The position numbers and the translations under genes were made by a program. Of a stretch of 64,000 nt of DNA, positions 2,232 to 21,027 are shown in pieces; position 1 is the first letter of the stretch; each line of letters begins with the position of its first letter. This DNA comes from Acidobacteriota bacterium. Its GTDB lineage: Bacteria; Acidobacteriota; Terriglobia; Terriglobales; Acidobacteriaceae. Below the pieces are notes generated by a model. The model searched no databases, had not been told where the DNA came from, and saw nothing but the letters and a program-made list of their open reading frames with translations. The stretch is from contig JABDHA010000002.1 in assembly GCA_013285705.1 (NCBI GenBank), positions 30,146-94,145 on the forward strand, in the 5' to 3' direction.

Positions 2232-3400
2232 GCGATGCCCCCGACAGCCAGCACTTGCCGCATCCGCTGAGCGGCGAGGTCGGGATCGCGCAACACACGG
2301 GCGTTGTCCGCGAGGCGAAACAGTTCGGCAAGATGAACGAGTGAGCGAGCGCTCTGCTGACCACCCAGCATCATGAAATGGTCCTGCAGGCCATTGAGAT
2401 ATGCAAGAAAGACCACACCTGTTTTATAAAAGCGCGTAGGCGCCTTGAAGATATGCCGCGACAACGGCACGGTCGGCGCAAGTATGGAATGAAAACCAGA
2501 CTCGTTTCCCACGCCAAGCTGTGCCAGGGCGGCAGAGGCTGCGGGCGCAATCGCATCGAAGATACCTAAGAGCGCATGTGAGTGGCCCTGCTCGTCTCCT
2601 GCAATCAGCTCTGCATAGTTGAAGTCGTCTCCGGTATACATGCGAACGCCAGCAGCGAGACGGCGACGCATGATGATCTCTTTCTCTGCAGACAAAAGCG
2701 AGATCTTCACACCGTCGATTTTGTCAGCGTGGCTGTTGATGATATCGACGCTTACATCCATCGCAGCCATGTGGTCGTCTGCGCCCCAATAACCTTTTAG
2801 CGCCGGATCGAACATCTCTCCCAGCCAGTGCAGGATCACAGGCTCTTTCATTTGGCGCAAAATCCTGTCATAGACGCGCTGGTAATCTTCCGGCGATTGC
2901 GCGGCGGCGACCAGGGCGCGGCTTGCCATCAGAATGATCCGGCCTCCAAGCTTCTCGACAACTTCCACCTGCTCCTCATAGGCACGGACGACATCATCGA
3001 CAGTAACGCTGCTGCAAACGGGCAGATGATCGGTACCAACGCCGCAGGCAATGAGGGCGTCTGGTCGAGCTCGCGCAGCTTCGAGGGAGTGCCTGATCAG
3101 CTCTTGCGCACCGCTCCAATTCAAGCCCATTCCCCGTTGCGCTGTATCCATTGCTTCGGCCACGCCGAGGCCCATGTCCCATAAATAATTGCGAAAAGCG
3201 ATGGTACGCTCCCAGTCGATGCTCTGGTCAAGCCAAGGATCGTCATCCGCTAGAGGATTCGCAACCACATGGGCTGCCGAATACGCGACACGATTGAATC
3301 GCGGCGGTGCGGAGAAATCCAGCGGCGGCAGCGGGCTGTTCGTAATGGTGTAGGCTTCCAGTTCCCCGTTGTTCGTTGGCAAATTGAGCGCCGGCATCAT
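2228..3400 (-). CDS. dihydrodipicolinate synthase-like protein (DUF993 family)
   Basis: 390 aa ORF; overall look of DUF993 TIM-barrel proteins; same operon. Confidence 0.75.
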   Translation of the reverse strand: MMPALNLPTNNGELEAYTITNSPLPPLDFSAPPRFNRVAYSAAHVVANPLADDDPWLDQSIDWERTIAFRNYLWDMGLGVAEAMDTAQRGMGLNWSGAQELIRHSLEAARARPDALIACGVGTDHLPVCSSVTVDDVVRAYEEQVEVVEKLGGRIILMASRALVAAAQSPEDYQRVYDRILRQMKEPVILHWLGEMFDPALKGYWGADDHMAAMDVSVDIINSHADKIDGVKISLLSAEKEIIMRRRLAAGVRMYTGDDFNYAELIAGDEQGHSHALLGIFDAIAPAASAALAQLGVGNESGFHSILAPTVPLSRHIFKAPTRFYKTGVVFLAYLNGLQDHFMMLGGQQSARSLVHLAELFRLADNARVLRDPDLAAQRMRQVLAVGGIA

Positions 3401-3403
3401 CGC

Positions 3404-4582
3404 CTATACCGCTCTCTCTGCCGCATCTAACGACAACGGAGGCACGTCCAGCCAACGCCGCTCAGACCAACTCTTAAGGCCAAGCTCCGCTAATTGCACG
3501 CCTTTAGCGCCTTCCAGCAGATTGAAGCGCCACGGAGTGTCCGCTGCTACGTGACGAATGAACTCCTCCCACTGGAGCTTAAAACCGTTCTCGTAGACTT
3601 GATTGTTCGGTACCTCGTCCCATTGCTCCTCGAACTTCATCGTCTGTGGCTGGTCGGGGTTCCACACTGGGCGCGGCGTGTTCACGCGATGCTGCGTGTA
3701 ACAGCGGGTCAGGCCAGCCACCGCGGAACCGTGCGTTCCGTCCACTTGGAAAGTCACGAGGTCATCGCGTTTCACGCGCACAGCCCAGGAAGAATTGATC
3801 TGTGCGATCACGCCGTCCTGCAGCTGGAAGGTCGCATAGGCCGCATCGTCGGCATCTGCCTTGTAGGCATTCCCCTGTTCATCGAAGCGATTCGCAATAT
3901 GGGTAGCGCCGACGCAACTGACTGCCTTTACCTCGCCGAACAGATTGTCCAGTACATAACGCCAGTGCGGCAGCATATCTAGAATGATGCCCCCGCCATC
4001 CGCTTTGCGGTAATTCCATGACGGACGTTGCGCCGCCTGCCAGTCGCCCTCGAAGACCCAATATCCGAACTCTCCGCGTACGGAGAGAATGCGTCCGAAG
4101 AAACCTGTGTCCTTCAGCATGCGAATCTTGCGCAAACCGGGCAGGTAAAGTTTGTCCTGCACCACACCGCTCTTTACACCATGTGCATGGGCAAGGCGTG
4201 CGAGCGACAAAGACTGTTCAAGCGTCTCAGAAAGCGGCTTTTCGCAGTAAATATGCTTTCCCGCTTCGATGGCGCGGCTCAGTAGCGCGGCACGCATCTG
4301 CGTCGAACCGGCATCAAAAAATATTGTGTCCTCCGGGTTAGCAAGCGCCGTCTCGACATCGTTAGCAACACGAGTAATGCCGTGACGATGGGCCAGCTCC
4401 CTTACCTTTTCTACGTTGCGGCCCACGAGAATCGGGTTCGGCATCATCCGGTCCCCGTTCGGTAGCGCCACGCCTCCCTGCTCTCGTATCGCCACGATCG
4501 AGCGAACAAGGTGCTGGTTGTAGCCCATGCGCCCGGTGACGCCATGCATAATGATGCCGATTTCCCTGGTAGACACTACCAC
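3404..4582 (-). CDS. Gfo/Idh/MocA family oxidoreductase
   Basis: 392 aa ORF; IIMHGVTGRMGYNQH Rossmann N-terminus, GKHIYCEKPLSETLEQSLSL EKP motif. Confidence 0.92.
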   Translation of the reverse strand: MVVSTREIGIIMHGVTGRMGYNQHLVRSIVAIREQGGVALPNGDRMMPNPILVGRNVEKVRELAHRHGITRVANDVETALANPEDTIFFDAGSTQMRAALLSRAIEAGKHIYCEKPLSETLEQSLSLARLAHAHGVKSGVVQDKLYLPGLRKIRMLKDTGFFGRILSVRGEFGYWVFEGDWQAAQRPSWNYRKADGGGIILDMLPHWRYVLDNLFGEVKAVSCVGATHIANRFDEQGNAYKADADDAAYATFQLQDGVIAQINSSWAVRVKRDDLVTFQVDGTHGSAVAGLTRCYTQHRVNTPRPVWNPDQPQTMKFEEQWDEVPNNQVYENGFKLQWEEFIRHVAADTPWRFNLLEGAKGVQLAELGLKSWSERRWLDVPPLSLDAAERAV

Positions 4583-4778
4583 CTCTTGTTTCTAACGTTT
4601 GTTGCAAAAGTTTTACCGTTAATCATCCATGCTGTGCTGAGCGCCTGTCAAGCATACGTGAACATACAGCCTTCCGGACCCATCCCGGGAATCATGGGAT
4701 CGCCCTATAGAGCTCTCCCACTTCGTGGATCGCAGGCCACTGATGACCCTGCCGAATGGGTAATGGCCGTGGACAGAA

Positions 4779-6023
4779 TCAAATGCGGAGAAAGATTTTG
4801 TTGCGGTACATCCAGAACAGAATGAGCCAGTAAACCAGCATCACCGCCATGCCAAGCATTAGCGGCTCAAGCGCTGACCCAAAAATCTGAAAGACTCTGT
4901 AGCCGAGATTGATGTGAAAGCTGCTGACGATGAAGTTTTCCCATAGATGCGTAATCAGGTATGCCGCAATGGAATTCATACCGACCACAACCAGAGGAAA
5001 TGCCCATCGGCGGTAATTCTTCACATCGATGATCCACGAAAATGCCACGAGGAAAAAGAAGCAGATGCCGCCACTAAAGAGCGTCCAACTGGGAGTCCAC
5101 ACACGTTTCACGATGGGACAGATCCCTGTGAAATGAAAAAATAAAGCAGCGGAGAACAGAATCAGTCCGGCGACGAAGAATCGCCGGAGCGGTATGCGGG
5201 GTGCTGCAGCGCGGAACCACTGACCAGCCATGAGACCGAGCAGCATTGTGCCGAGTGTAGGAATGAAGCTCAGCGTAAGATAACCACCGTCATTAAAAAG
5301 GAAGGGCGACGTACGGGGAAATAAATTCAGGAACCACACGTCGAAGGCTTGGCCGAGGTTGCTGTTCTTGTTCCAGTGTGAAGCAAAGCCAGTGAAGTTA
5401 TGGTGCCAGCCCACGGGAACGCCAACTGACGCGTAGTCGAAATTCGGACCAGGCGCAGGATAGAGAGCCCAGGCCAGCCAGTATCCGAAGAGGATGACGG
5501 CGAACGCGGTCCATTGCCATTTCGGGCGACAGAATGCCAGCAGGAAGGCGACGGTGTAGCCAAGCCCGATCTGCGTAAGCGTATCTTCAAAAGTGAAATA
5601 GGTTTGCGTGCTATGCGTGGAGCGGAGAAAGATTCCCAGTGCAATGAGCAGCAGGCTTCTCCATATCGTATGCAGGAGCAGATGGCCGAAGCTCTGCCCT
5701 TTGCGCATGCGGCTGTGAATGGAATAAGGAAGCGCCACACCCACAAGAAATGTGAATGACGGCTGGATCGTGTCATGCAGGCCGAGGCCGGCCCATTCTA
5801 CGTGTGTCTGGTTGTATGCAAGCACTCGCCAAAACAGACTGCCAGGGTAGGAGTGGGCGATAGTGGCAAAGTTCAGGACCTCGCCCATCATGAGCAGCAT
5901 GACCAGTCCACGATAGGCGTCGACAGCGACATTGCGCCTGGGCGCCTGCACTGCAACGGCCTCAACTGAAGCACTTGCGACTATCGGAGGATATTCTGCG
6001 CTGACTATAGATGACATGATCAC
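4779..6023 (-). CDS. membrane protein, heparan-alpha-glucosaminide N-acetyltransferase-like (DUF5009 type)
   Basis: 414 aa polytopic ORF; VDAYRGLVMLLMMGEVL, FTFLVGVALPYSIHSR. Confidence 0.8.
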   Translation of the reverse strand: MIMSSIVSAEYPPIVASASVEAVAVQAPRRNVAVDAYRGLVMLLMMGEVLNFATIAHSYPGSLFWRVLAYNQTHVEWAGLGLHDTIQPSFTFLVGVALPYSIHSRMRKGQSFGHLLLHTIWRSLLLIALGIFLRSTHSTQTYFTFEDTLTQIGLGYTVAFLLAFCRPKWQWTAFAVILFGYWLAWALYPAPGPNFDYASVGVPVGWHHNFTGFASHWNKNSNLGQAFDVWFLNLFPRTSPFLFNDGGYLTLSFIPTLGTMLLGLMAGQWFRAAAPRIPLRRFFVAGLILFSAALFFHFTGICPIVKRVWTPSWTLFSGGICFFFLVAFSWIIDVKNYRRWAFPLVVVGMNSIAAYLITHLWENFIVSSFHINLGYRVFQIFGSALEPLMLGMAVMLVYWLILFWMYRNKIFLRI

Positions 6024-6536
6024 CTCTCCATGGATGAATCAGCTGACTTCGCGATGGGATAGCAGGTCTTTCGATTTCTTACGAATGCTCTGGATTTCGG
6101 ATGATAGTACATAACCCGTGCGCCTTCCGCAAGAGAATCATGAAATCCTGGAAGTAAGTCACGTGATGGGAGAGGATGTCTGCAATCCTGTGTTAGATCG
6201 GAATCTGTGGAGGACAAAGGAACTTGCAGGTGTGCGGTCTTCAGTTGACAGAGGAGAAGGCCTGCTTCTAAACCACCGGGTACTACGCGAAATCATACGC
6301 AATCATTCGTAACATAAGTTGTCGCGATCCAATGTAGAGGAAAATGCGATTCCGATCCACGACTGAAACAGAATTTCTCGCCGATTGACGGGTGAACACG
6401 GAACAACGCATAGACGAAACGTCTCTCATCTCGCTCTTTTCATACCCTCAGCAACAACCTCTTCAGCTTCAACGCCTTCTATATGAACAGCAAGATTGGA
6501 CCTTACCATCCGCTCCACACGATATATTAAATATTC

Positions 6537-7835
6537 ATGAGTGCCCGCTTACCAATAGAAGAAAGCACCTCCATAACCAGGAAAAATTTCCCCTCCTCTT
6601 CGGGACAGATGTTTCAGGACTATTTCGCCCGTGAGCGCGAAGACAGCTACAAAAAGCATGACCTCATCGATGCCCGGGCGCGAAGGCTGTTTGAGAATAC
6701 GGCACTAGCCTGTTCCCTGGATGCCTATCCGTTTCAAGCTCCATTGAGCACCAAATCAGGGCCTGAAGTGGAGATGGATGGTCACAGGATGTTGATGCTG
6801 TCGTCCTACGATTACCTGGGACTCATCGGGGATCGCCGTGTCGATGAAGCGGCCATTGCGGCGGTACGGAAATACGGTACAGGAACAGGGGGCGTTCGCC
6901 TGTTGACGGGAACGCTGGATCTCCATCAGGAGATGGAACAAGCACTTGCTGAGTTCAAGGGGACAGATGCGGCGATCACCTTCACTTCAGGATACGCGGC
7001 CAATCTGGCGGTGATCAGCGCTCTATTGGGGCCTGCCGATCGCGTCATTGCCGATGCACTCTCACACAGAAGCTTGATGGACGCATGCCGCCTGGCCGGA
7101 GTTCAGGTCCAAAGATTCAATCACAACGATCCGGCCTCTCTCCGGTATCAGTTGGAAAACGGACCAGAGGCCAACCGCACACTCATCATTTCCGATGGGG
7201 TGTTTTCCATGGATGGTGATATCGCCTGCCTTCCAGAACTGATTGCGCTGAAGAAAGAGTTTGACTGCTTTCTGCTGATGGATGAGTCGCATGCGAGCGG
7301 TGTGCTGGGCCGGCATGGCCGGGGAACCGACGAACACTTCAACATTCCGACAGCGGAGATTGATATCTGGACCGGTTCGCTGGCCAAGGCAATCCCTTCG
7401 AATGGCGGATTTGTAGCCGTTTCGCAACGGCTGGCGATCTTCCTGCAACATGCTTCCGCTCCTTTTATTTTTTCGGGCGCGATGGCAGCCCCGGCGGCTG
7501 CGGCGGTTTTGGAAACACTGAAGATTCTGAAAGAGGAGCCCGAGCGAGTCGCCCGGTTGCAGGCAAATGCGACGTTTCTACGCGAGGGCTTGCAAAGCCT
7601 CGGATACGACATCGGGTTATCGCAAACGTCAGTGATTCCGGTGATGCTTCATGACGATGCGAAAACGGCATTTTTTGCCCGAAAGCTGCGCGATCACGGA
7701 GTCCTTGTCTCGCCGGTGCTCTTTCCAGCAGTCGCGCAGGGCGCAGCCCGATTGCGCCTGTGCACCACAGCGGCCCATACACAAGACCACCTCCAATTTG
7801 CTCTGGACGTTTTTGCGAAGATGCGGAACGACTAA
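6537..7835 (+). CDS. PLP-dependent alpha-oxoamine synthase (8-amino-7-oxononanoate synthase / serine palmitoyltransferase family)
   Basis: 432 aa ORF; SSYDYLGL, YGTGTGGVRLLTGT, LLMDESHASGVLGRHGRG, GSLAKAIPSNGG (PLP Lys). True start may be internal (Met at 6609). Confidence 0.88.
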   Translation: MSARLPIEESTSITRKNFPSSSGQMFQDYFAREREDSYKKHDLIDARARRLFENTALACSLDAYPFQAPLSTKSGPEVEMDGHRMLMLSSYDYLGLIGDRRVDEAAIAAVRKYGTGTGGVRLLTGTLDLHQEMEQALAEFKGTDAAITFTSGYAANLAVISALLGPADRVIADALSHRSLMDACRLAGVQVQRFNHNDPASLRYQLENGPEANRTLIISDGVFSMDGDIACLPELIALKKEFDCFLLMDESHASGVLGRHGRGTDEHFNIPTAEIDIWTGSLAKAIPSNGGFVAVSQRLAIFLQHASAPFIFSGAMAAPAAAAVLETLKILKEEPERVARLQANATFLREGLQSLGYDIGLSQTSVIPVMLHDDAKTAFFARKLRDHGVLVSPVLFPAVAQGAARLRLCTTAAHTQDHLQFALDVFAKMRND

Positions 7836-7838
7836 TCA

Positions 7839-8831
7839 ATGCCCGTATTCGTCACCGGAGCCAGTGGATTTCTGGGTGGCCGGCTCACGGAAATGCTCGC
7901 GCTCGCAGGGGAGCAGGTAACGGTACTGGCCCGGCCTACCTCCGACCTGCGGCATCTTTCCGGGCTCGCAGGGGTTCGGGTGGTGCTTGGAGATCTCACA
8001 GAGAACGCCGCGGTCGCGGAAGCCGCGCGCGGAGCCACACACATCTTTCATTGTGCGGCAACTTCTACCGACTGGGCGCCCATGGAGGTGTTTCTCCAGA
8101 GCAATGTGACGGGGACAGAGACATTGTTGGCTGCGGCGCAGCAAGTTCCCTGCCTGGAGCGCTTCATTCATGTCAGCACGACCGATGTTTATGGATATCC
8201 AGCGATTCCCTGCCCCGAGACAGGAGCGCTCCTGGACGTGGGTTTGCCGTACAACCGGACAAAGATCCTGGCAGAACAGACGGTGTGGCAAAGCTCACGG
8301 AATAGACTGCCGGTAACGGTCGTTCGACCGGCAACGATCTACGGTCCGCGCGGGAAAGCGTTTGTCAAAGATATCGCAGACCTGTTGCGGGTTCGTCAGA
8401 TGGTACATATCGGGGGTGGACAGGCGAGGGGTGGCTTTCTATATGTCGATAACGCTGTGGACGCGATGATCGCGGCAGCGCGTAGTCCGCAGACTGAGGG
8501 ACAGGCTTACAACCTGACAGACGGTACAGGAGTGAACTGGAAAATGTATGTAGCAGCGCTGGCCGACGGGCTGGGTTGCAAGCCGCCGTGGATCAATCTT
8601 CCCTATCGTGCTGCGATGGCCATTGCAAGCGCAATGGAAGCTCCGTACCACTGCTTCAGGAAGCTCCCGGGGCGGCCGATGCTTACACGCCACGCAGTCT
8701 CTCTGCTGGGGCGGGATCAGGAGTTCCCCAGCGACAAGGCGCGCGTGGAATTCGGCTTTACTCCACGGGTGTCCTTCGAGGAAGGAATATCCAGGTCCCT
8801 GGCGTGGCTAAAGGGCTTGAACCCAGCTTAA
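7839..8831 (+). CDS. NAD-dependent epimerase/dehydratase (extended SDR; candidate ketosphinganine/ceramide reductase-like)
   Basis: 330 aa; VTGASGFLGGRL, STTDVYGYP, PYNRTKILAE, VVRPATIYGPRG; starts 3 bp after upstream gene. Confidence 0.88.
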   Translation: MPVFVTGASGFLGGRLTEMLALAGEQVTVLARPTSDLRHLSGLAGVRVVLGDLTENAAVAEAARGATHIFHCAATSTDWAPMEVFLQSNVTGTETLLAAAQQVPCLERFIHVSTTDVYGYPAIPCPETGALLDVGLPYNRTKILAEQTVWQSSRNRLPVTVVRPATIYGPRGKAFVKDIADLLRVRQMVHIGGGQARGGFLYVDNAVDAMIAAARSPQTEGQAYNLTDGTGVNWKMYVAALADGLGCKPPWINLPYRAAMAIASAMEAPYHCFRKLPGRPMLTRHAVSLLGRDQEFPSDKARVEFGFTPRVSFEEGISRSLAWLKGLNPA

Positions 8832-10039
8832 GGAAAAACCTTGAAGGCGAGCGAGGCATTCAGGCCGCCGAAGGCGAACGAGTTCGAAAGGCAAGCCTCT
8901 ACCTGCGTTAATCGCGCCTGATTGGGAATAACGTCAAGGTCACAGCAAGGATCGGCGGTGAGGTAGTTTGCAGTGGGTGGCAACGCCCCATGCTTGAGGC
9001 TAAGGGTGCTGACGACGGCCTCAAGAGCACTGCTGGCGCCCAGGGCATGACCGTGCATGGATTTCGTGGAGCTGATCGCAAGCTTGTCAGCATGCGGGCC
9101 GAAGACATTACGGATGGCAGCAGTTTCGATGCGGTCGTTGGCCTCCGTCGCTGTTCCGTGGGCGTTTATATAGCCAATCTGCTCAGGCGCCAACCCGGCG
9201 TCGCTAAGAGCGAGGCGCATGGCACGACTGGGTCCGGTGGCGACAGGCTGCGTGATGTGACTTGCATCCGCGGACATGCCGAAGCCGATAATCTCAGCAA
9301 GAGGATGCGCGCCGCGGGCAAGGGCGCTATCGAGGGGTTCAAGCACGAGCATGGCGGCGCCTTCGCCCAGAATCATGCCACTGCGCTCGGCGGAAAATGG
9401 GCGGCAGGTGTCTTTGCTGATCACTCGCATCGCCTCCCATGCCTTGAGACCGCCAATAAAAAAAGGAGCTTCGCTGCCTCCGGCAATCGCCAGCGGAGCG
9501 GCTCCGGAACGGACCATCCAGAAGGCCTGGCCAATCGCGTGGGCGGAAGAGGCGCAGGCGGTAGAAATGGTATAGGCAGGCCCTTCAATGCCGTACTGCA
9601 TACAGATATGGCTCGCACCTGCGTTCCCCATACTGAGCGGAATGGTGAGAGGATGGACCCGGTTTTTATTGTTGTGAAAGAGTTCCCAATAGCCGCTGTC
9701 TTCGACCGCCCGCCCTCCAAGGCAGGATCCGGTAATGACTGCGGTAGTTTCGCGCAGGTTCGTCGTCCACTCTATGCCCGCTTCGGTAATGGCCTGGCGA
9801 ACGGCGACGACCGCGAATTGCGCAAAGCGCTCCATGAAGCCTATATCTCTGGCCTCGAAGTGCTCTTCTGGCTTGTATTCCCGTATTTCCGCAGCGTTCT
9901 TGAAGCGGACCTGCGAGGTGTCGACGCTGGTGATCTCTCGAATGGCGGAAGTGCCTGAAAGCAAAGCCTGCCAGAAGCTGGCAGTGCTGTTGCCGAGGGC
10001 GCTCACCACGCCGGTTCCGGTAATGACGACGCGGCGCAC
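8828..10039 (-). CDS. beta-ketoacyl-ACP synthase (KAS II/FabF-like)
   Basis: RRVVITGTGVVSALGNS, STACASSAHAIG (active Cys), NAHGTATEAND, STKSMHGHALGASSA; GTG start chosen at 10039 (track ORF extends to 10096). Confidence 0.93.
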   Translation of the reverse strand: MRRVVITGTGVVSALGNSTASFWQALLSGTSAIREITSVDTSQVRFKNAAEIREYKPEEHFEARDIGFMERFAQFAVVAVRQAITEAGIEWTTNLRETTAVITGSCLGGRAVEDSGYWELFHNNKNRVHPLTIPLSMGNAGASHICMQYGIEGPAYTISTACASSAHAIGQAFWMVRSGAAPLAIAGGSEAPFFIGGLKAWEAMRVISKDTCRPFSAERSGMILGEGAAMLVLEPLDSALARGAHPLAEIIGFGMSADASHITQPVATGPSRAMRLALSDAGLAPEQIGYINAHGTATEANDRIETAAIRNVFGPHADKLAISSTKSMHGHALGASSALEAVVSTLSLKHGALPPTANYLTADPCCDLDVIPNQARLTQVEACLSNSFAFGGLNASLAFKVFP

Positions 10040-10040
10040 G

Positions 10041-10307
10041 TTATTCAGTGGGCGAAGAATCTGTCTTCGCCTGGACCAGATGGGTGACACCTTCAATCAT
10101 TTCGTGAATGTTCTGGACCTGCTTGGCTTCCTCGTCGTTGATCTCGATGTCGAACTCGCTTTCAAGGTCAAAAAGGATGTTCAAGCGATCCAGCGAATCG
10201 ATCCCGAGGGATTCAAAGCTGCTGTCGGGATGCACATTCTCTATGGGCACACGTTTCGAGGTCGCAATAACCTTCAAAACTCTATCTTCGATGGTCAGGC
10301 CGGTCAA
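10041..10307 (-). CDS. acyl carrier protein
   Basis: 88 aa with phosphopantetheine site FESLGIDSLDRLNILFDLESEF. Confidence 0.93.
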   Translation of the reverse strand: MTGLTIEDRVLKVIATSKRVPIENVHPDSSFESLGIDSLDRLNILFDLESEFDIEINDEEAKQVQNIHEMIEGVTHLVQAKTDSSPTE

Positions 10308-10462
10308 TGTCAGGAATGGTCCTTGTACGCGATCAATACCGATCCACGTGGGTGCTTAGTCTCTCCAATTTTATCCTGATTTTCGCATCTGACTGAAATA
10401 AGACGATCCACTCCCCAAGAAATCTGACCTGCAGTCGCAAGATACAGTAAAGAGGCCGTCGG

Positions 10463-11890
10463 GTGTCACTCGGTAACTCTGTGTTCCAAGATGCTTCATT
10501 TAACGCCACAAATGAAAGTGACCCGCGGACGAGTACACTGTGGGCTATGACTGTTCCGGCACGAACATTAGGCGCCTTGAATCTGGAGATCCGTGAATCG
10601 CTGATTGCACGAGCGGTTCAGTTGCCTGTGCAGCAGTTCATTCACACACAGGGCGTTAGCAGCGCATTTCTTCTTGTTGCTTCGGTTGCAGCGCTCATCT
10701 GGGCAAATTCTCCGTGGAGTGCTTCCTACTATCACATCTGGCACATCAAGTTGACCTTGTCCGGATTGCAGCTTCCCATTCACGAGTGGATCAACGATGC
10801 CATGATGGCCCTGTTCTTTTTCCTGGTTGGCATGGAGATCAAACAGGAAATCGTCAACGGTGAGCTGTCCGACCTGCGGCGCGCCTCGCTGCCGATTTGT
10901 GGCGGGCTCGGCGGCATGGTCGTGCCCGCTTTGATCTTTAGCGCCATCAATCGCGGCAGACCGGGTGCCCACGGATGGGGAGTGCCCATGGCGACCGACA
11001 TCGCCTTTTCATTGGGGGTACTCGCGCTGGTAAAGGGGATTCCGGCAGAATTAAAGGTCTTTTTGTTATCGCTGGCTATCGCGGATGACATCGGTGCCAT
11101 TACCGTCATCGCTGTTTTCTACACGGAGACGCTGTATCTTAACTACCTCTTCATTGCAGCTCTACTCCTCGCCGTTATTCTGCTTTGTCGAAAGATCGGT
11201 TTTGGACGGCAAATTCTGTATGTCGCTCTCGGTTTCGGCTTCTGGCTGGCAATTTTGCGATCAGGCGTGCACGCCACAATTGCCGGGGTGATTCTTGGCT
11301 TCCTTGTGCCGGTCAAATCCCAGGTCTCACTTGACGACTTCGATGAACTCAGCCGGCAGACGATGGACGAGTTTCGCAAAGCCCGCGCCGCAGGCGACAC
11401 ATCTCTCGCAGCCCGGCAGCTGGGCGCAATGGAGTATCTGATTGCGAATACCGAATCTCCAGCCGATCGCGTCACACGAAAGCTTCACGATTGGATCGCC
11501 TATCTGATTCTGCCCCTCTTCGCTCTTTCGAATGCAGGCGTGACATTCTCGTCGAATATATGGCAATCCCTGATGCACAGCTCTGTTGCCTGGGGCGTGC
11601 TCCTGGGACTATTTGTCGGCAAGCCAATTGGCATCTTCGGAGTATGTTGGCTGGCAGTAAAGCTGAAAATCGCGCAGCTTCCAAAATCAGTGCGATGGAG
11701 CCACATTGGAAGCGTGAGCATGCTCGCTGGAATCGGCTTCACCGTATCGCTGTTTATTAGCGCGCTCGCCTTTGACGACGGCGCTCAACTGGATGCAGCG
11801 AAGACAGCGGTTCTGGTCGCATCGCTTCTGGCGGGCGTATCCGGATATATGCTGTTGAAACGTGTTGCCGGAATCTCAAAACAGGCATAA
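10463..11890 (+). CDS. nhaA: Na+/H+ antiporter NhaA
   Basis: ALFFFLVGMEIKQEIVNGEL, MATDIAFSLGVLALV, SLAIADDIGAI, GIGFTVSLFISALAF. Confidence 0.96.
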   Translation: MSLGNSVFQDASFNATNESDPRTSTLWAMTVPARTLGALNLEIRESLIARAVQLPVQQFIHTQGVSSAFLLVASVAALIWANSPWSASYYHIWHIKLTLSGLQLPIHEWINDAMMALFFFLVGMEIKQEIVNGELSDLRRASLPICGGLGGMVVPALIFSAINRGRPGAHGWGVPMATDIAFSLGVLALVKGIPAELKVFLLSLAIADDIGAITVIAVFYTETLYLNYLFIAALLLAVILLCRKIGFGRQILYVALGFGFWLAILRSGVHATIAGVILGFLVPVKSQVSLDDFDELSRQTMDEFRKARAAGDTSLAARQLGAMEYLIANTESPADRVTRKLHDWIAYLILPLFALSNAGVTFSSNIWQSLMHSSVAWGVLLGLFVGKPIGIFGVCWLAVKLKIAQLPKSVRWSHIGSVSMLAGIGFTVSLFISALAFDDGAQLDAAKTAVLVASLLAGVSGYMLLKRVAGISKQA

Positions 11891-11979
11891 GCAATCTCTA
11901 GTGAGTTCGCAACATATTTCACGATTCCGCTGGACAATGGTACACTAAGGCTACCGCCTAAGTCATTGATAGTAAACAT

Positions 11980-12071
11980 GGAGAGGTGGCAGAGCCCGGT
12001 TGAATGCACCTGACTCGAAATCAGGCATGGGGGTAACTCCATCGGGGGTTCGAATCCCTCCCTCTCCGCCA
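11980..12071 (+). tRNA. tRNA-Ser (anticodon CGA), CCA encoded
   Basis: GGAGAGG acceptor pairs CCTCTCC; CCTGA-CTCGAAA-TCAGG anticodon arm; long variable arm; GGGGG-TTCGAAT-CCCTC T arm; terminal GCCA. Confidence 0.95.
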
Positions 12072-12072
12072 G
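12052..12072 (+). repeat. attL core (3' end of tRNA-Ser)
   Basis: GAATCCCTCCCTCTCCGCCAG, identical to 21007-21027. Confidence 0.93.
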
Positions 12073-12086
12073 AATCTGGCTACCCT

Positions 12087-12102
12087 TTAAAGTGTTGATT
12101 CC
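12087..12102 (+). repeat. arm-type site, inverted partner of 20966-20981
   Basis: TTAAAGTGTTGATTCC is the reverse complement of GGAATCAACACTTTAA at 20966. Confidence 0.8.
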
Positions 12103-12166
12103 ATTACTTATTTCTGTCCTCATTTTGCCGTAGTACAGAGCAAACGGCTTTAGTACACTGAGCGGC

Positions 12167-13309
12167 ATGGAAAACCCCAGTGTCTACAAGCGGTTCATAG
12201 AGCAAACGGTCAAACCGTCTAAGCGCCCGAAGCTGTTTTGGTACTGTCGCACTCCTGAGGGTTGGCGCTATCTCACCGATACCACTGAGAACCGTAAACA
12301 CATCCAGGGCAGACATGTAATCCGGGAGAACATCTCCGTCGACGGTAAAAGCAAACGAATCTATACGCCTCTCAAAGAGAACGAGACGCCCCAGCAAGCG
12401 TTACAGAATGCGATGCTACGCGCCGTCAGCGCTGCTCGAAAGAGAGTACCCACAAAGACACATGACGGGCTTAAAAAGGCAATGAACGATTACATCGCAG
12501 ACCGTGAAGCTCATGGCAAGTTAGAGGCAGCGGAACACGCGAGGCATACGCTACCGGAGTTTCGGTCTATCTGCCCTCAGGTGTCGACGGTCACCGGGGT
12601 GACTCGCCAACATCTCACCGCATTTTGTGCAGCGCTACGAAAGCGGGGGCAGAGTCCTCGAACCGTGAGCAACAAGTATGACCGCATTCGCTCATTCCTG
12701 AAGTTTGCCGGGAGCGATGTCCAGCTATCGAAAAGTGATCGCCCAAAGTTTGATAAGACGTTGCCGACAACGTACACGAAAGCGGAGACGGACGCGCTAC
12801 TCGCACACGCTACCGATTACATGAAGGTCGTCATCTGCCTCGGATTGCAATTAGGTCTTCGGGATCAAGAGATGATGCACGCGGAATGGGACGATATCGA
12901 CAGAGAGCACAGAACGTTTCGAGTCAAGAGTAAGCCTGTTTATGATTTCGGAGTAAAAGATGCAGAAGAAAGGGATATCCCGATACCGGCATCCCTGTTC
13001 ACAATGCTCAATAAGTGGCGTGAGAGTCGCCCTGGCACATCGCTGATACTTGGAGTGGGTGAAGAGTTCCAGAACACGAACGGGCATCTCCTGAGGACGC
13101 TACAGCGTATGGCGAAGCGTTGCAATGTCGAGAACGCCACTCTGCACAAACTGCGCCGAACATATCTCACTCGCTTATTGCAGTCGGGAACAGACATCCG
13201 AACCGTTCAAGCGTTCGCCGGTCACGCTGACTTGGAATCAAGTATGCGTTATCTGAGACCGGCAGGAGCCAAAGAGATGCTGTCTCACGTCGACGCTATT
13301 GATTGGTAA
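12167..13309 (+). CDS. tyrosine recombinase / integrase
   Basis: 380 aa; R (LGLRDQEMMHAEW), HxxR (LHKLRRTYLTRLLQSG), H...Y (FAGHADLESSMRYLRP) catalytic pattern. Confidence 0.94.
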   Translation: MENPSVYKRFIEQTVKPSKRPKLFWYCRTPEGWRYLTDTTENRKHIQGRHVIRENISVDGKSKRIYTPLKENETPQQALQNAMLRAVSAARKRVPTKTHDGLKKAMNDYIADREAHGKLEAAEHARHTLPEFRSICPQVSTVTGVTRQHLTAFCAALRKRGQSPRTVSNKYDRIRSFLKFAGSDVQLSKSDRPKFDKTLPTTYTKAETDALLAHATDYMKVVICLGLQLGLRDQEMMHAEWDDIDREHRTFRVKSKPVYDFGVKDAEERDIPIPASLFTMLNKWRESRPGTSLILGVGEEFQNTNGHLLRTLQRMAKRCNVENATLHKLRRTYLTRLLQSGTDIRTVQAFAGHADLESSMRYLRPAGAKEMLSHVDAIDW

Positions 13310-13318
13310 AAAAAAGCT

Positions 13319-13344
13319 GCCCTCCAGTCCGAAGACCAGAGGGC
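13319..13344. terminator. probable terminator between integrase and tape-measure remnant
   Basis: GCCCTC-14 nt-GAGGGC hairpin just after integrase stop. Confidence 0.55.
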
Positions 13345-13353
13345 GCAAGAGTT

Positions 13354-14761
13354 TTATCTTCTGTGACTCGGAGGAAGTCGACTGTTTTGATCTGCTTTAG
13401 CCTTTATCGCGTCCATGACAGAGCGCTGATGCGTTGCCTGTAGACCCTTAATTACCGCTGCCTTCGTCAACTCGGGGTTCGTCGAGTGGCGTGCGTCGAT
13501 TGAGTAATTGTGTGTTGTTCCACCGAAACCCGATTTCGAGTTTGGAATGATCGTCCCTGCTTTTTTCGGGACGAATAATTCAGGCAATAATGTTGCGATA
13601 TAACCGTGTCCGTTATATCTCTCACCGTTGCCGATGAGTTCAGGTCATCTCTTCACCCTGTTAGGGTGTCTTCCATTTCGCGAACACTGTTCGCTACGTG
13701 CCGAAGCACTGACCGTCACACGTTCCCTTTCGGGCTTCGCTCGGTATTGTCTCCATGTGGAGAGGTTCACCGAATTAGAAAGATTATCGAATAGCATTGC
13801 TGCTACAAGGGGCCATTGAATTAACCCTGTTCACCTACAATCGACATTTGATTTACGGGCGGTTCCCCTCCGTCCGCGAACCCTAAACCAGAAAACAATG
13901 CAGCGCCTGCGGCCTTACCTAGCAGCCCGCTTAGACCACCAGTAAGCTTGCCAATGTGCCGCGCACAGCACCGCCTATATCGGACATACTGAAGCCACCA
14001 AGGCCACCTTTACCGGAACCACCTAATCCGCTTAAACCGGGGATGCCACCGACAATCTTTACCGGCATCGGCTGCTTCCCAAGTCCGAACGCACCCAGTA
14101 ACCCGCCCTCTGCCTTCTGTAAGCCTGCTTTCCCTATCGTTCGCAAACCATTAGCGGCAGCGTTCTTGATGTTCTTTCCAAACTGTCCGCGCTTGCTGTC
14201 GAGTAGAGCGTCGTTGAAGTCTTCAATGAATTTACCGAAGGTCTGCGTCAACACTTGAGGCATATTCACCGTAAGCATCTGTTGTAGCTGTGCGAGTGAA
14301 GTTGTCGAGCTAATGCTCTGGTTATCGCTCTGTACCTGCACCTGTCGGTTTGCCTGGACGGTAGCAATCTGCCTGCCCACGCGCTGCGATTCCGCAACAT
14401 CTCCTACACCATCGGCAGCACGTTGCTGCTGCTGAAGGTCAGAGAGGGCTTGGGTATAAACTTTTGTATTCAAAGTGGCCAAAGAGATTGCGGCAGCATG
14501 GGCCGATACCGCCCCAGTAGAGAGCTGAAACGATATCGATTGCTCTGCTAGGCTGTCCGCACCGTGCCGTTGAATGTCTGCGAGGTCGTCCTGGTATTTA
14601 GTTAGTTCATCGGATAGCATGATTTCGCCGGATGCGGAACCATGTCCACCACCAACTAAGTAATTCCACGCTGCCACTGAATTGAGTGGAATGGACGGTC
14701 GGTCTAGCATGTTGCGTTGTTCTGTTTTGCGTCCACTAAAGGCGCGAGTTAAAAAACTCAT
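13354..14761 (-). pseudogene. truncated phage morphogenesis gene: HK97-portal-like N-terminus joined to tape-measure C-terminus, split by a -1 frame change and a group I intron
   Basis: ORF 13931-14761 starts MSFLTRAF...RPSIPLNSVAAWNYLVGGGHGSASGE (portal-like) and continues as tape-measure-like sequence; a -1 frame continues TGGLSGLLGKAAGAALFSGLGFADGGEPPVNQMSIVGEQG, then intron, then PELFVPKKAGTIIPN...NYSIDARHS. Confidence 0.75.
13585..13823 (-). ncRNA. group I intron (compact, IA-like with P7.1/P7.2), no ORF
   Basis: 5' exon ends ...CAGGGU, intron begins U and ends G; manual fold gives P1 GGGUUA/UGGCCC with U.G at splice site, P2 UAGCA-GCAA-UGCUA, P3 UCUUUC/GGAAGA, P4 UUCGGU/ACCGAG, P5 CUCC/GGAG, P6 CCC-GAAA-GGG, P7 GGUCA/UGACC, P7.1 GUGC-UUCG-GCAC, P7.2 GCGAAC/GUUCGC, P8 CACCC/GGGUG, P9 CUCAUCG-GCAA-CGGUGAG, P9.1 GAUAUAAC/GUUAUAUC; removal joins GEQG to PELFVP in frame. 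Confidence 0.9.
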
Positions 14762-14764
14762 CGT

Positions 14765-15424
14765 TTATGCGGTTCCTTTGTCTGGGTAGGCGAGTGCTCG
14801 CCATTGCTGCCATAGTTCGTTGGCCAATACTTCGTTGCCTTCGGCTTGCGCTTGTCGCTGCCTCTTGTAGAGGTCTTGCATTCGCTGTGTGCGGTCCTGA
14901 TAGGCGATGACGTAAGCACGTCGTTCTTCTATCTCTGCCCTGAATGGTGCTTGCTCGGATTCGGTGAACCTGCTCATCATGTCGTCAAGGTCACGCTCAC
15001 TCAGAGACATATCGAGACAGAACTGGATATCAGCCTGGAGTTGCTTGTCGACAACCGGTTGTAATTCTTTGGGCAGCGATTCAGGGGCCGAAGGACGCTT
15101 CTTCTCTTTCTTGTCGATTGCTGCAAGCGTCCGCTGAAGTAACGCCAAGTCGGCGCGTGTCGCTTCTGTTTTGGGATTCCGCATCTTGGCGGTAAGCGTG
15201 GCAGCGAGTTCGACATCTAACCGGTCAGCGGCAGTGAGCCACGGTCGCGTACTCGATATTTCTGCCCATGCAGTCTTCGCACCCTGGGGAAGTCTCACCG
15301 GTGGATCGCCAAGGGGATCGCTGGGCGCACTTTGTGCGGTCAACCGCTCCTTGTAGCGCTTCGGATTCTGTTTCAGCGTCCCTGAGAGGGACAATTCGTC
15401 TAAACTCTTGCGTTTTCGTCCCAT
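14765..15424 (-). CDS. phage terminase small subunit, P27-like
   Basis: 219 aa; LSGTLKQNPKRYKER...DPPVRLPQGAKTAWAEISSTRPWLTAADRLDVELAATLTAKM matches the N-terminal pattern of P27-family TerS. Confidence 0.7.
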   Translation of the reverse strand: MGRKRKSLDELSLSGTLKQNPKRYKERLTAQSAPSDPLGDPPVRLPQGAKTAWAEISSTRPWLTAADRLDVELAATLTAKMRNPKTEATRADLALLQRTLAAIDKKEKKRPSAPESLPKELQPVVDKQLQADIQFCLDMSLSERDLDDMMSRFTESEQAPFRAEIEERRAYVIAYQDRTQRMQDLYKRQRQAQAEGNEVLANELWQQWRALAYPDKGTA

Positions 15425-15862: not shown

Positions 15863-16195
15863 TTATCGCTGCCGGGAATCCTTTGTCAAAGTTTGAAACT
15901 TCAATGTGTAAGTGTGTCGTGCGATCTTACCGCGTGCACTTGCTTTAGATTTCTTGCCACGCGAGTACGGCATTGGTAGAACGGGGAAAATGAATCCTTT
16001 GTCTGTTAGCTCCTGGCGTGCTCGCTGAAGGAAATCAACATTGATTCCGGCATCGCGTGCGAGCTTCGTATTCGTCCAAGAGTGTGACAACATACCTTGC
16101 CGGGTATCGGGTGGCACTTTTGCGTTAACCTTGCGTATCACCTTGCGTTCAAGATGTTTTAGCAGTCTCGCTGCCTCAAGTGATAAAGGCTTCAT
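15863..16195 (-). CDS. hypothetical protein, winged-HTH-like
   Basis: 110 aa; WTNTKLARDAGINVDFLQRARQELTDKGFI resembles a wHTH recognition region. Confidence 0.5.
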   Translation of the reverse strand: MKPLSLEAARLLKHLERKVIRKVNAKVPPDTRQGMLSHSWTNTKLARDAGINVDFLQRARQELTDKGFIFPVLPMPYSRGKKSKASARGKIARHTYTLKFQTLTKDSRQR

Positions 16196-16590
16196 CGGAT
16201 GCCTGCCGCGATACTCATCGGATGGAAGTCACGTCCGCGTTTACGACGGACAGATAGCAATACCTGAGTGAACCTGAACAGGGAATCGTCAAGCGCTGTC
16301 ATAAGCACTTGGCACATGTTGTTGGGAATCGTGCCGGGAACATACCCTGTAAGCAATTCCGGGTATTCGTCTTGTAGTTCCTCAATCAATATCGCTGCGA
16401 TGGCTTGTGATCGCCATAGACGGTCGTAATGGTGCTCGGCTACTTCCTGTCCATTCCTTATGCGTTCGGTATCTGCCACGAAGGTATTAAGCACTTCTGT
16501 GTAACAGGCCGCGTTTTCGTCGAACTCCAGAGTTTTTACCCACTTCAGCACATCTAAGGCGAGCAGGCGTTGACTTTCAATTGTTCTCAT
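16192..16590 (-). CDS. hypothetical island protein
   Basis: 132 aa ORF overlapping the next gene by 4 bp, operon-like. Confidence 0.55.
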   Translation of the reverse strand: MRTIESQRLLALDVLKWVKTLEFDENAACYTEVLNTFVADTERIRNGQEVAEHHYDRLWRSQAIAAILIEELQDEYPELLTGYVPGTIPNNMCQVLMTALDDSLFRFTQVLLSVRRKRGRDFHPMSIAAGIR

Positions 16591-16620: not shown

Positions 16621-16836
16621 TTATGCTTGTGCTGGCTTGTCGTATATAAATGCACGCATCGCTTGGCAACTTAGGCTGAACTCTTTGGCGAGTTCGGCAA
16701 TCTGCCACTGTTCAGCTTCACTGAGCAGGTGCGCGTTCTCTCGGACGACCGCAAAGAATGTGGTCCAATTTGTGGTATCGGTGACGATGTCAATCAAAGT
16801 CTGTCGTAGTTCTTCGAGTTCGATGTCGTTTGTCAT
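16621..16836 (-). CDS. hypothetical island protein (71 aa)
   Basis: ATG at 16836 preceded by GGTGAGGGAGA SD lying in the 71-bp repeat. Confidence 0.55.
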   Translation of the reverse strand: MTNDIELEELRQTLIDIVTDTTNWTTFFAVVRENAHLLSEAEQWQIAELAKEFSLSCQAMRAFIYDKPAQA

Positions 16837-16840
16837 TATG

Positions 16841-16911
16841 TCTCCCTCACCTATATAGGAAAAAACGGGGGGTAAATGTCTCAAGAAGGTCAATCTTTTT
16901 TCAACTATTTT
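16841..16911 (-). repeat. 71-bp promoter-like repeat, copy 1
   Basis: Identical to 17732-17802; ends in an SD-like sequence just before the ATG at 16836. Confidence 0.92.
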
Positions 16912-17731
16912 TTATCTGCCCTGTATCACCGCACAAAGTGCGTTCGATAGGGGTCGCGCCAAGGGGATCGGCCAAAGGGTCGGAGATTGTAGTCGCTGTG
17001 GTCGATGTGTACTTTTGACTGAGGATTCCCGGTTGGGTGTTTCCTCGCGCGCGGGTACGCGTAGATTACGTAATAGGACACTCGAAAACCTTACGGTTTT
17101 CTCGGTCTTTTAGTAATCGTACTTAGAGAACTAAAGAAATAAATATCTAGGCAGAAAACGTACTTAGAACACGTTTTAAGTTCAGCGTCTGAGGTAATCT
17201 CAGCCTTATTAGGGCCAAAAAAGCATCAACACCGTCCAAGTACGCAATCCCCGTTATCTCTAACGAAAATAAACCATCTATCTACCGCTTTTGTTAGTTA
17301 CGGTAGATAAGGCTTCTTGGTGGTGTTGGCTTACGGTCCTGCATGGTTTGATGGGTTGTTAGTCCACCAGCGCGTTCTCAGGTTCCGTGCGCTGTAAATC
17401 CGGAACCTAACCATGTCAGCCGCTCAGTGCGTGTATCCCTTTTATCGCAGCCAATCTGCTGCCCTCATAATCACGTACGGATACAGGGACCTATGCCCTC
17501 TGAGGTACGGTTTTATTTTCGACGGTTTGCTCCGTCAAGGGCCGCTTGCCTCTCATCGACTAAACGACTCCACGGGGATACCTGGGTCTAAGATACGGTC
17601 GTGATCTGCAACAGTCCTGCATTCGTCCTCAATGACACGTCAGGGATCAACTTTCGATATGCACGCGGGACGATGATGCCGCCCGGCTTTGACTCCGGGA
17701 CTTTTGGTGTGGTGAGAGAGTTCTAATATCT
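16912..17731. other. ~820-bp non-coding interval rich in inverted repeats; candidate structured RNA or origin/packaging region
   Basis: No minus-strand ORF in the track; perfect inverted repeats at 17279-17309, 17380-17408, 17342-17415 and 17521-17536. Confidence 0.45.
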
Positions 17732-17802
17732 TCTCCCTCACCTATATAGGAAAAAACGGGGGGTAAATGTCTCAAGAAGGTCAATCTTTTTTCAACTATT
17801 TT
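17732..17802 (-). repeat. 71-bp promoter-like repeat, copy 2
   Basis: TCTCCCTCACCTATATAGGAAAAAACGGGGGGTAAATGTCTCAAGAAGGTCAATCTTTTTTCAACTATTTT identical to 16841-16911. Confidence 0.92.
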
Positions 17803-17830
17803 GTAAACCCTCTGTAATCAACACGTGTGT

Positions 17831-18829
17831 CTACTGAGCGTCTTCGTCCTCCGGAGCCGTCTCGGGGACCGTAAGCGCATTTTGTGCACCTGTGGCCATC
17901 ATCCTGGCACGTGTCCGTTCCCTGATCTTCAGTTGTGAGTTGTACTCAGCATCCCGTTCCGCCAGCCTTGCGTTCCTGTCCGCGTGATACTCCTCGCGTT
18001 CGGGTGCAACCTTTTTGCGTATCCGGTAAAAGATGTTTCGAACGGCTTGCTCTGACTTCCCCATTTCCCGGGCAATCTCCTTGTCGCTCAGGCCGTCCAT
18101 TGTCAACTCGGCTGCCCAACGCTCGTGACCCTCAAGAGATTCCGGTATCAAATACTCACCGAAGGCGTACCCTTTGCCCACACCCATAATCATGTTGACG
18201 ATTTCGGGATTGTCGCGAGTCTCAGAGTATTGGCCTTCATCATCGTCTATGTCGACATCGAACGATACGGGAACGTGTGTTGCTCTGTTCTTATTGCGGT
18301 CTCGACGAGCTTCATGAAGGCGGTTGGTGCAGATGGTGTTAACCAACATCTCGAACTCCGTGGAATCGCCCTCGAAGGTGGCCATACGTTCCCAGACTGC
18401 GATTAAAACTTCCTGTGTCCAGTCGCACGCATCCAGCATCTGGCCGTCTGCTCCGCGCCCCTGATCCATTTCCTTATCGAACGAATAGAGGCGTTGCTTG
18501 GCGCGGTCCTCAACAGCTTTGAGTAGCTTGCTTTCGCTCCCTGAGAGGAGCCATGTGTAAAAGCCATCGCTTATGCGTTGCGAGATGGACCGCTTCTTAC
18601 TTTTGGGCCGTGGTGCGTCTACGATCACGTGATCGCTGCTCAGTCCCACATCCTCAGGTGTCAGCGTGCGAACCTCACCGTGGCCGCCTGCTACACGCTT
18701 GGCTTCGCTTCGTGCTACCCGCTTCGCTTCCTTCTCTTGCTCCTTTAGCCATTCGGCAGCTATGTCCTGCTCACGTTCTTGTTCCTCTAATTCCAACTGC
18801 TTCTCATCTTCCGGGTTGTCAAAATACAT
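17831..18829 (-). CDS. sigma-70 family (ECF-like) RNA polymerase sigma factor with long N- and C-terminal extensions
   Basis: Region 2-like DACDWTQEVLIAVWERMATFEGDSTEFEMLVNTICTNRLHEARRDRNKN; region 4-like AAELTMDGLSDKEIAREMGKSEQAVRNIFYRIRKKV; start at 18829 has AAAGGAG SD. Confidence 0.78.
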   Translation of the reverse strand: MYFDNPEDEKQLELEEQEREQDIAAEWLKEQEKEAKRVARSEAKRVAGGHGEVRTLTPEDVGLSSDHVIVDAPRPKSKKRSISQRISDGFYTWLLSGSESKLLKAVEDRAKQRLYSFDKEMDQGRGADGQMLDACDWTQEVLIAVWERMATFEGDSTEFEMLVNTICTNRLHEARRDRNKNRATHVPVSFDVDIDDDEGQYSETRDNPEIVNMIMGVGKGYAFGEYLIPESLEGHERWAAELTMDGLSDKEIAREMGKSEQAVRNIFYRIRKKVAPEREEYHADRNARLAERDAEYNSQLKIRERTRARMMATGAQNALTVPETAPEDEDAQ

Positions 18830-19320
18830 GTCATGGTCTCCTTTAAATTGAATTGCGCCCATTCAAGAGCTTGTGTTTGGTTCGGTTTCATACTGCGTGA
18901 TCGTCAAGCGGGCAATAAAAAAGCCCACCTATAAGGTGAGCGCGTGTCGTCATGGATAGAGGCCATCCGTTCTCGGTATATCAGGCGCTCACGTTTTCAT
19001 CGGTACATCCTTTTTGGGGGTCATCTGGTTTGGAGACCAGAGACACCTGTGACTACTATTCCTAGAATATCAAACGGGCAACCCGAAGTCAAGACTTATC
19101 CTCGGATGCACCATTTCTAGGGCACAAACCGAGTCATCGCCACGTTGCCCTGTAGCGCGTCCGTTTTCGCTTACTGTGGGATTGCCTGTCCGAGAGGCTA
19201 CAAGTCGAACCTGGGCCGGTCAGCGCCTTACCGTGAGCGATGCCAATATCGGTATCTGACCATAGCTGGCCATTTTCCAAAATTAGGCTCTCAAGGGAAC
19301 TTGGCTTTGGAATTATATAC

Positions 19321-19400
19321 TCTCCTACTAATATATACGGAAATATCAGGGGTAAAACCTTCGAATAAATCAACTATTTTCACTTTTTTTCAACTATTTT
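19321..19400 (-). repeat. diverged third copy of the 71-bp element
   Basis: TCTCCTACTAATATATACGGAAATATCAGGGGTAAAACC...TCAACTATTTT; TCAACTATTTT occurs twice at 19370 and 19390. Confidence 0.7.
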
Positions 19401-19707
19401 CGAGGGGTCAAACCATTCAATGCGGAAAAGCTACCATTCAATGAAAAACTGTCCGAATGTGGACAAAATTGTGCAATATTACTCGTTGCAACAAATGCCC
19501 ATAAAATGGTGCAATCGTGTATTTATTACACGTATTAGTCGTTGCAACAGTTAAGCATAGCTAACCCCAAACATGTAAACCCTCTGGAATCAGTGGGACT
19601 CCTAAGTTGCTTAGGTATACGATGGCAGGGCGATAATAGGGCGCGAAGGTGGGTTTCGTCGAGAGGTCTGACCAGTTGAGCGCACTTTGTGCGCGGCTCG
19701 GAGCGTT

Positions 19708-20325: not shown

Positions 20326-20657
20326 CGTTTTAAAATCCCTTCGTGAATAACTTAGCGCATTCTCACTGGCACCAACGAAAGTAGGTGTAAAGATGCGGAA
20401 CACACAAACTAAAACGGCACCTGGAAACGTTCACCAGATGCCGTGATCTTGTCGGGGTCACCAAATTTCCGAGCGACCCCCGTAGGCGCTTGCCAGAGCG
20501 ACATTGAATTGTGACGCGGGATCGGGGATCGTTACAGATAATCTTTCTGCCCAGAGTCTCTAAAAAAGACTTGACACAAAAAATAAATGTGACATATAAT
20601 GCGCCGCTCATGTTATCGTGATTTCACATCCCAACTAGGGATCGAGGAAAACGAATA

Positions 20658-20888
20658 ATGGAAACTACTATCGTGAAATGCTGCGAATGCGACGAAACCG
20701 GCACCAAAAACGATCTCACACCGTGCCACCAATGTGGCCGATACATGTGCATTCGGCACTGCTGCAAGTGCGATGTCACGATCTCTTCAGCCGAGGAGTG
20801 GAAAGAGTCTTTCGTCAACCCCGTACCCACAGACGCCACGTTTCCGATGGTGCTGTCTTTCGATGCCCTGGGTGAGTTGCTCGGTTGA
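20658..20888 (+). CDS. small Cys-rich putative zinc-binding protein
   Basis: 76 aa; CCEC-x11-CHQC-x5-CIRHCCKC pattern, GAGG SD upstream. Confidence 0.55.
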   Translation: METTIVKCCECDETGTKNDLTPCHQCGRYMCIRHCCKCDVTISSAEEWKESFVNPVPTDATFPMVLSFDALGELLG

Positions 20889-21006: not shown

Positions 21007-21027
21007 GAATCCCTCCCTCTCCGCCAG
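21007..21027 (+). repeat. attR core
   Basis: GAATCCCTCCCTCTCCGCCAG identical to tRNA-Ser 3' end. Confidence 0.93.

Follow-up and report, generated by a model that had tools for sequence, protein, structure and literature searches.

In the 64,000-nucleotide stretch of acidobacterial DNA analysed here (the window), an island of ~9.0 kb bounded by 21-bp exact repeats of a tRNA-Ser 3' end encodes a 332-aa protein that is probably an ECF-like but very divergent sigma factor. Our best explanation, to which we give a probability of about 0.6, is that this factor was inherited from a tRNA-Ser-integrating siphophage together with private promoters, and that the element is now a deleted prophage. Since a full-size relative, the prophage of genome G593 from the same bacterial family, also has a gene with sigma region 2 ahead of its terminase genes, the island protein was most likely inherited as an activator of late genes and, judging from sequence, probably once switched these on in the phage.

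Features of the island (positions in the window):
12052-12072, plus strand: attL, a 21-bp exact direct repeat at the 3' end of tRNA-Ser(CGA) (11980-12071)
12167-13309, plus strand: tyrosine integrase (PF00589, 6.7e-21; 6.9e-55 to the integrase of the G593 prophage)
13354-13587, minus strand: last exon of a tape-measure C-terminus, matching the G593 and G508 tape-measure proteins
13588-13824, minus strand: group I intron, ends approximate (RF00028, 56.4 bits at 13621-13832, gathering score 50)
13931-14761, minus strand: fusion ORF joining a portal N-terminus (residues ~13-48) to a tape-measure C-terminal part (residues ~52-270)
14765-15424, minus strand: P27-type terminase small subunit, TerS (phrog_83, 3.8e-6; matches to annotated phage TerS)
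15863-16836, minus strand: three small ORFs heading the terminase operon (16621-16836, 16192-16590 and 15863-16195, the last with a weak HTH_36 match)
16841-16925, minus strand: copy of an 85-bp repeat with the P3 motif at 16852-16876
16926-17731, minus strand: ~800-nt non-coding stretch downstream of P2, without codon periodicity
17732-17816, minus strand: copy of the 85-bp repeat with the P2 motif at 17743-17767
17831-18829, minus strand: probable ECF-like sigma factor, 332 aa (domain matches, alignment, model)
18923-18941, minus strand: hairpin resembling a terminator, situated between P1 and the sigma gene (consensus scan only)
19332-19400, minus strand: P1, the third and diverged version of the promoter-like element, ~500 bp ahead of the sigma gene
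19681-19693, no strand: palindrome CGCACTTTGTGCG, with further copies at 16930-16942 and 15326-15338
21007-21027, plus strand: attR, a 21-bp exact repeat

Domain content and predicted fold of the 332-aa protein

An earlier note, made from the letters of the window, had read a sigma-70-like ORF here, with region 2-like and region 4-like segments and charged extensions untypical of ECF factors, a reading that holds up. The ATG at 18829 has an AAAGGAG ribosome-binding site 8 nt upstream, and the GC content at the three codon positions (0.63/0.39/0.61) resembles that of the other island genes, while the non-coding stretches are flat. Sigma70_r4_2 (PF08281) matches residues 244-273 just above its Pfam cut-off (6.5e-6, 26.1 bits against 25.7), and Sigma70_r2 (PF04542) matches residues 130-179 below its own (3.5e-4, 20.8 bits against 24). 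The NCBIfam sigma70-ECF model TIGR02937 spans both regions (residues 126-274; 7.9e-9), although at 35.4 bits it stays below the curated score of 42.9; TIGR02989 (3e-9) and PHROG 1740, 'RNA polymerase sigma factor' (9e-8), match as well. Charged helices are predicted at the N-terminus (residues 6-47), and a long helix at the C-terminus (residues 260-318).

In an alignment that combines the protein with the G593 protein and ECF factors, Q139 and A253 do not vary, and D136, F152, N169, E251 and R269 fall among the nearly invariant columns. The predicted core-binding segment, including D136 and Q139, is retained. The later part of region 2 is present. The poor match of region 2.1 and the region 2 score below the Pfam cut-off count against our explanation. 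The structure prediction that the earlier note had proposed as a check gave a mixed answer. AlphaFold, run on an alignment seeded with ECF proteins, confidently places a sigma2-like bundle at residues ~82-185 and a sigma4-like helix-turn-helix at ~226-280; the solved structures nearest to this ECF-seeded model are ECF factors, region 2 giving a VIA Z of 8.6 across 94 residues. Prediction from the single sequence gave a weak model of mean pLDDT 50, in which the helices are similarly placed and sigmaE is a non-significant top match; that the confident fold came from a seeded alignment is another point against our explanation.

Searches of 100 relatives, 396 genomes of the phylum, IMG/VR, GenBank phages, plasmids and GTDB contigs returned no convincing close homologue; the matches are ordinary ECF or LuxR-type proteins only. 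No homologue attests to conservation of the protein, and this, too, weighs against our explanation. By sequence, solved structures gave weak helix-turn-helix matches only. Separately, a role in defence was considered and rejected, the only match being between a CARF model and the helix-turn-helix portion.

A sigma look-alike, i.e. a late activator or repressor that binds DNA, has a helix-turn-helix and a helical bundle and does not take the place of sigma in the holoenzyme, would also account for some of these results. The strongest Pfam match is to the region 4 helix-turn-helix, a fold that also matches LuxR-type and transposase domains, and AAAATAGTTGAAAAAA tracts upstream of the promoters described below look like activator sites. 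We nevertheless consider such a protein doubtful: the ECF models cover both regions, and the segment expected to contact the core enzyme is kept.

The island as a probable internally deleted prophage

The element had been taken for a satellite-sized mobile island. An island of that size it is, with att sites and an integrase, but its content reads better, on sequence grounds, as an internally deleted siphoprophage than as an evolved satellite. The fusion ORF at 13931-14761 begins like an HK97-type portal protein (35 residues at 51% identity with the portal protein of locus L026) and continues as the C-terminal part of a tape-measure protein; taken with the downstream exons, this part matches G593 at 4.4e-39. 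On contig C419 of the congener G001, ~5 kb separates the two parent genes, portal and tape measure, whose order is that of the fusion ORF. The tape-measure end of the island carries a frameshift besides the group I intron, which splits a conserved VGEQG/PELFVP motif (junction GEQG/PELFVP) that is uninterrupted in relatives. TerL and the head genes are absent from the island, and apart from the integrase, TerS, the three small ORFs and the sigma gene little else in it is recognised. Att repeats with an integrase are found alongside structural-gene fragments in phage order and a deletion junction, as in a prophage remnant, and the deleted prophage is probably defective at present.

Three smaller observations concern the content of the island and of its congener. 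The island TerS is ~100 residues longer than that of its relatives, with an extra C-terminus (residues ~120-219) that has no recognised match. Just inside attR, at 20571-20888 on the plus strand, a perfect sigma-70 consensus promoter (TTGACA-18-TATAAT) precedes a 76-aa ORF, cysteine-rich and zinc-ribbon-like, which is the only clear cargo gene of the island. In G001, locus L044 on contig C419 combines, at 3140-13634, portal and tape-measure genes with an integrase, AlpA-like genes and a replication-like gene, and neither TerS nor TerL was found ahead of the portal gene: another odd prophage or satellite. When an empty tRNA site was sought in congeners, the genes beside the island proved not to be syntenic with those around the congeners' tRNA-Ser genes.

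The G593 prophage supplies the full-size counterpart. It spans ~36 kb and is flanked by 18-bp att repeats, of which one is the 3' end of tRNA-Ser(GCT) and the other adjoins the integrase; in IMG/VR it is found in a 35.6-kb virus contig (UViG_2861162634_000001). Its genes include TerS, TerL, portal and tape measure, and ahead of these lies one for a 161-aa protein with a Sigma70_r2 match of 3.4e-11. The island and this prophage have in common a homologous integrase, att repeats at a tRNA-Ser 3' end, a P27-type TerS, a homologous tape-measure C-terminus and a sigma-region-2 gene upstream of TerS, the last preceded in both by CGCAC-N3-GTGCG palindromes. Unlike the island, the G593 prophage is full size and has early genes between integrase and sigma gene, and its sigma protein lacks the long extensions. 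Since pairwise comparison shows little likeness between the two sigma proteins, what is shared is the position relative to TerS and the domain type; this weak likeness is a further point against our explanation. No P1-P3 motif was found in the G593 prophage. Among the other TerS-bearing relatives examined (L023-L028), no sigma-like gene lies near TerS apart from G024, where an ordinary ECF gene is found ~9 kb upstream.

Could the deletion product instead be a working satellite, kept by selection and packaged by a helper phage through the island's own TerS, with the sigma factor timing the packaging operon? The integrase, TerS and sigma ORFs are intact, the att sites match, and the congener G001 has portal and tape-measure genes of related phages. 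On the other hand, decay is suggested by the structural-gene debris, the frameshift and the intron in a tape-measure fragment that no longer serves a purpose, no replication or interference gene is recognised in the island, and its own assembly, only 59% complete, contains no portal-family gene elsewhere. On balance, we find a working satellite unlikely.

Candidate promoters, palindromes and the non-coding stretch

The 71-bp repeats that had been noticed earlier do exist, as 71 identical bases within the 85-bp repeat at 16841-16925 and 17732-17816, whose copies share 93% identity. Both copies and P1 contain TTTACCCC-N11-TATATA. This pattern, which was defined from the same three island copies, occurs three times in the 4.47-Mb assembly with one mismatch allowed; all three occurrences are exact, lie in the island and have the same orientation as the sigma gene, and a reversed control pattern gave none in the assembly. 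P1 precedes the sigma gene, P2 the ~800-nt non-coding stretch and P3 the terminase operon. Since P2 and P3 are a recent duplication, these copies amount to two independent instances (P1 versus P2/P3). No such motif was found in viral contigs. A candidate promoter motif confined to the island supports a private late regulon, as far as sequence goes. The private transcription programme proposed earlier survives in part: an island-only motif before the sigma gene and the terminase operon fits it, but the sigma factor was likely inherited from a phage. That the factor targets host genes rather than the phage's own promoters is very improbable: Bacillus phages with sigma factors that alter host programmes have been described (PMC9429907), but here the assembly lacks the candidate motif outside the island, and the motif is located before the terminase operon.

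The palindrome CGCAC-N3-GTGCG occurs three times in the window against 0.26 expected, and three of the eight copies in the assembly lie in the island, one of them within TerS; the Poisson chance of such clustering is ~7e-7, a value computed after the motif had been noticed. In the G593 prophage, three copies of this palindrome precede the sigma-like gene. There (L042:2225-2314), tandem TACGCAC-N3-GTGCGTA palindromes resemble the island's sites and are, by their sequence, candidate repressor operators.

The non-coding stretch at 16926-17731, between the 85-bp promoter-like repeats, may be a large RNA of the minus strand or a control region. Relative to shuffles, its folding z is -3.5 to -4.1 on the minus strand and -1.9 to -2.3 on the plus strand. 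As the other non-coding stretch, 18942-19700, also folds (z -2.7 to -3.0), the signal is unspecific and we claim no new class of non-coding RNA. Comparison with Rfam, including GOLLD, ROOL and other large phage non-coding RNAs, gave nothing above threshold, and permissive filters gave chance-level matches only. At the DNA level, the only relative is a 34-bp match inside an apparent coding gene of G008, with none in phages. The 85-bp repeat, examined as a structured RNA, gave a negative result. A more elaborate scenario, in which a deletion-derived satellite of 9 kb lives on with a private sigma factor and three private promoters, one making a structured RNA of ~800 nt and of unknown class alongside the packaging operon, is quite unlikely.

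Proposed switch and comparison with known systems

If the sigma factor was inherited from a siphophage, as we favour, the switch may have worked as follows. On induction, region 2 would bind the host RNA polymerase core, and the factor would direct the polymerase to the private element TTGA-N13-TTTACCCC-N11-TATATA. P3 would then drive the packaging/late operon, P2 a non-coding transcript and P1 perhaps the sigma gene itself; given the hairpin at 18923-18941, feedback from P1 would need read-through or another promoter. The CGCAC-N3-GTGCG palindromes may be sites at which a repressor acts. Since the element is internally deleted and probably defective, the switch may now be a relic.

ECF sigma factors are usually ~170-200 aa long. 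Like E. coli sigmaE and Bacillus SigW, the island protein shows matches to region 2 and region 4 only, and it differs from ECF factors in its 332 aa, the long charged helices at both ends and scores below curated cut-offs; unlike in ECF systems, no anti-sigma gene is recognised in the island. With phage-inducible chromosomal islands and phage satellites the element shares an integrase, a small terminase subunit, a size of ~9 kb and a tRNA site. It departs from them in its debris of deleted structural genes, and neither a replication module of its own, nor an interference module, nor a phage-responsive regulator is recognised in it. A limited literature search, which is weak evidence, turned up no satellite that carries a sigma factor. 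As the island illustrates, deletion of a prophage can leave behind a small element that resembles a satellite and has an integrase and TerS. Phages of Acidobacteria are hardly studied and, if our explanation is true, an acidobacterial sigma factor and its element-confined candidate motif would make a sigma-promoter pair small enough to test.

The sigma factors of phages have been studied most closely in Bacillus and a few lytic phages. Xpf controls the late operon of PBSX in Bacillus subtilis. We liken the island to this system across different host phyla: PBSX is a defective prophage that carries a sigma-like factor, Xpf (PMC4243946), and the island is probably another. Among 4,350 phage genomes 86.6% are without a sigma factor and the remainder carry one to three (PMC9429907). 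To these phage-encoded sigma factors, a kind already known, the 332-aa protein would be a very divergent addition.
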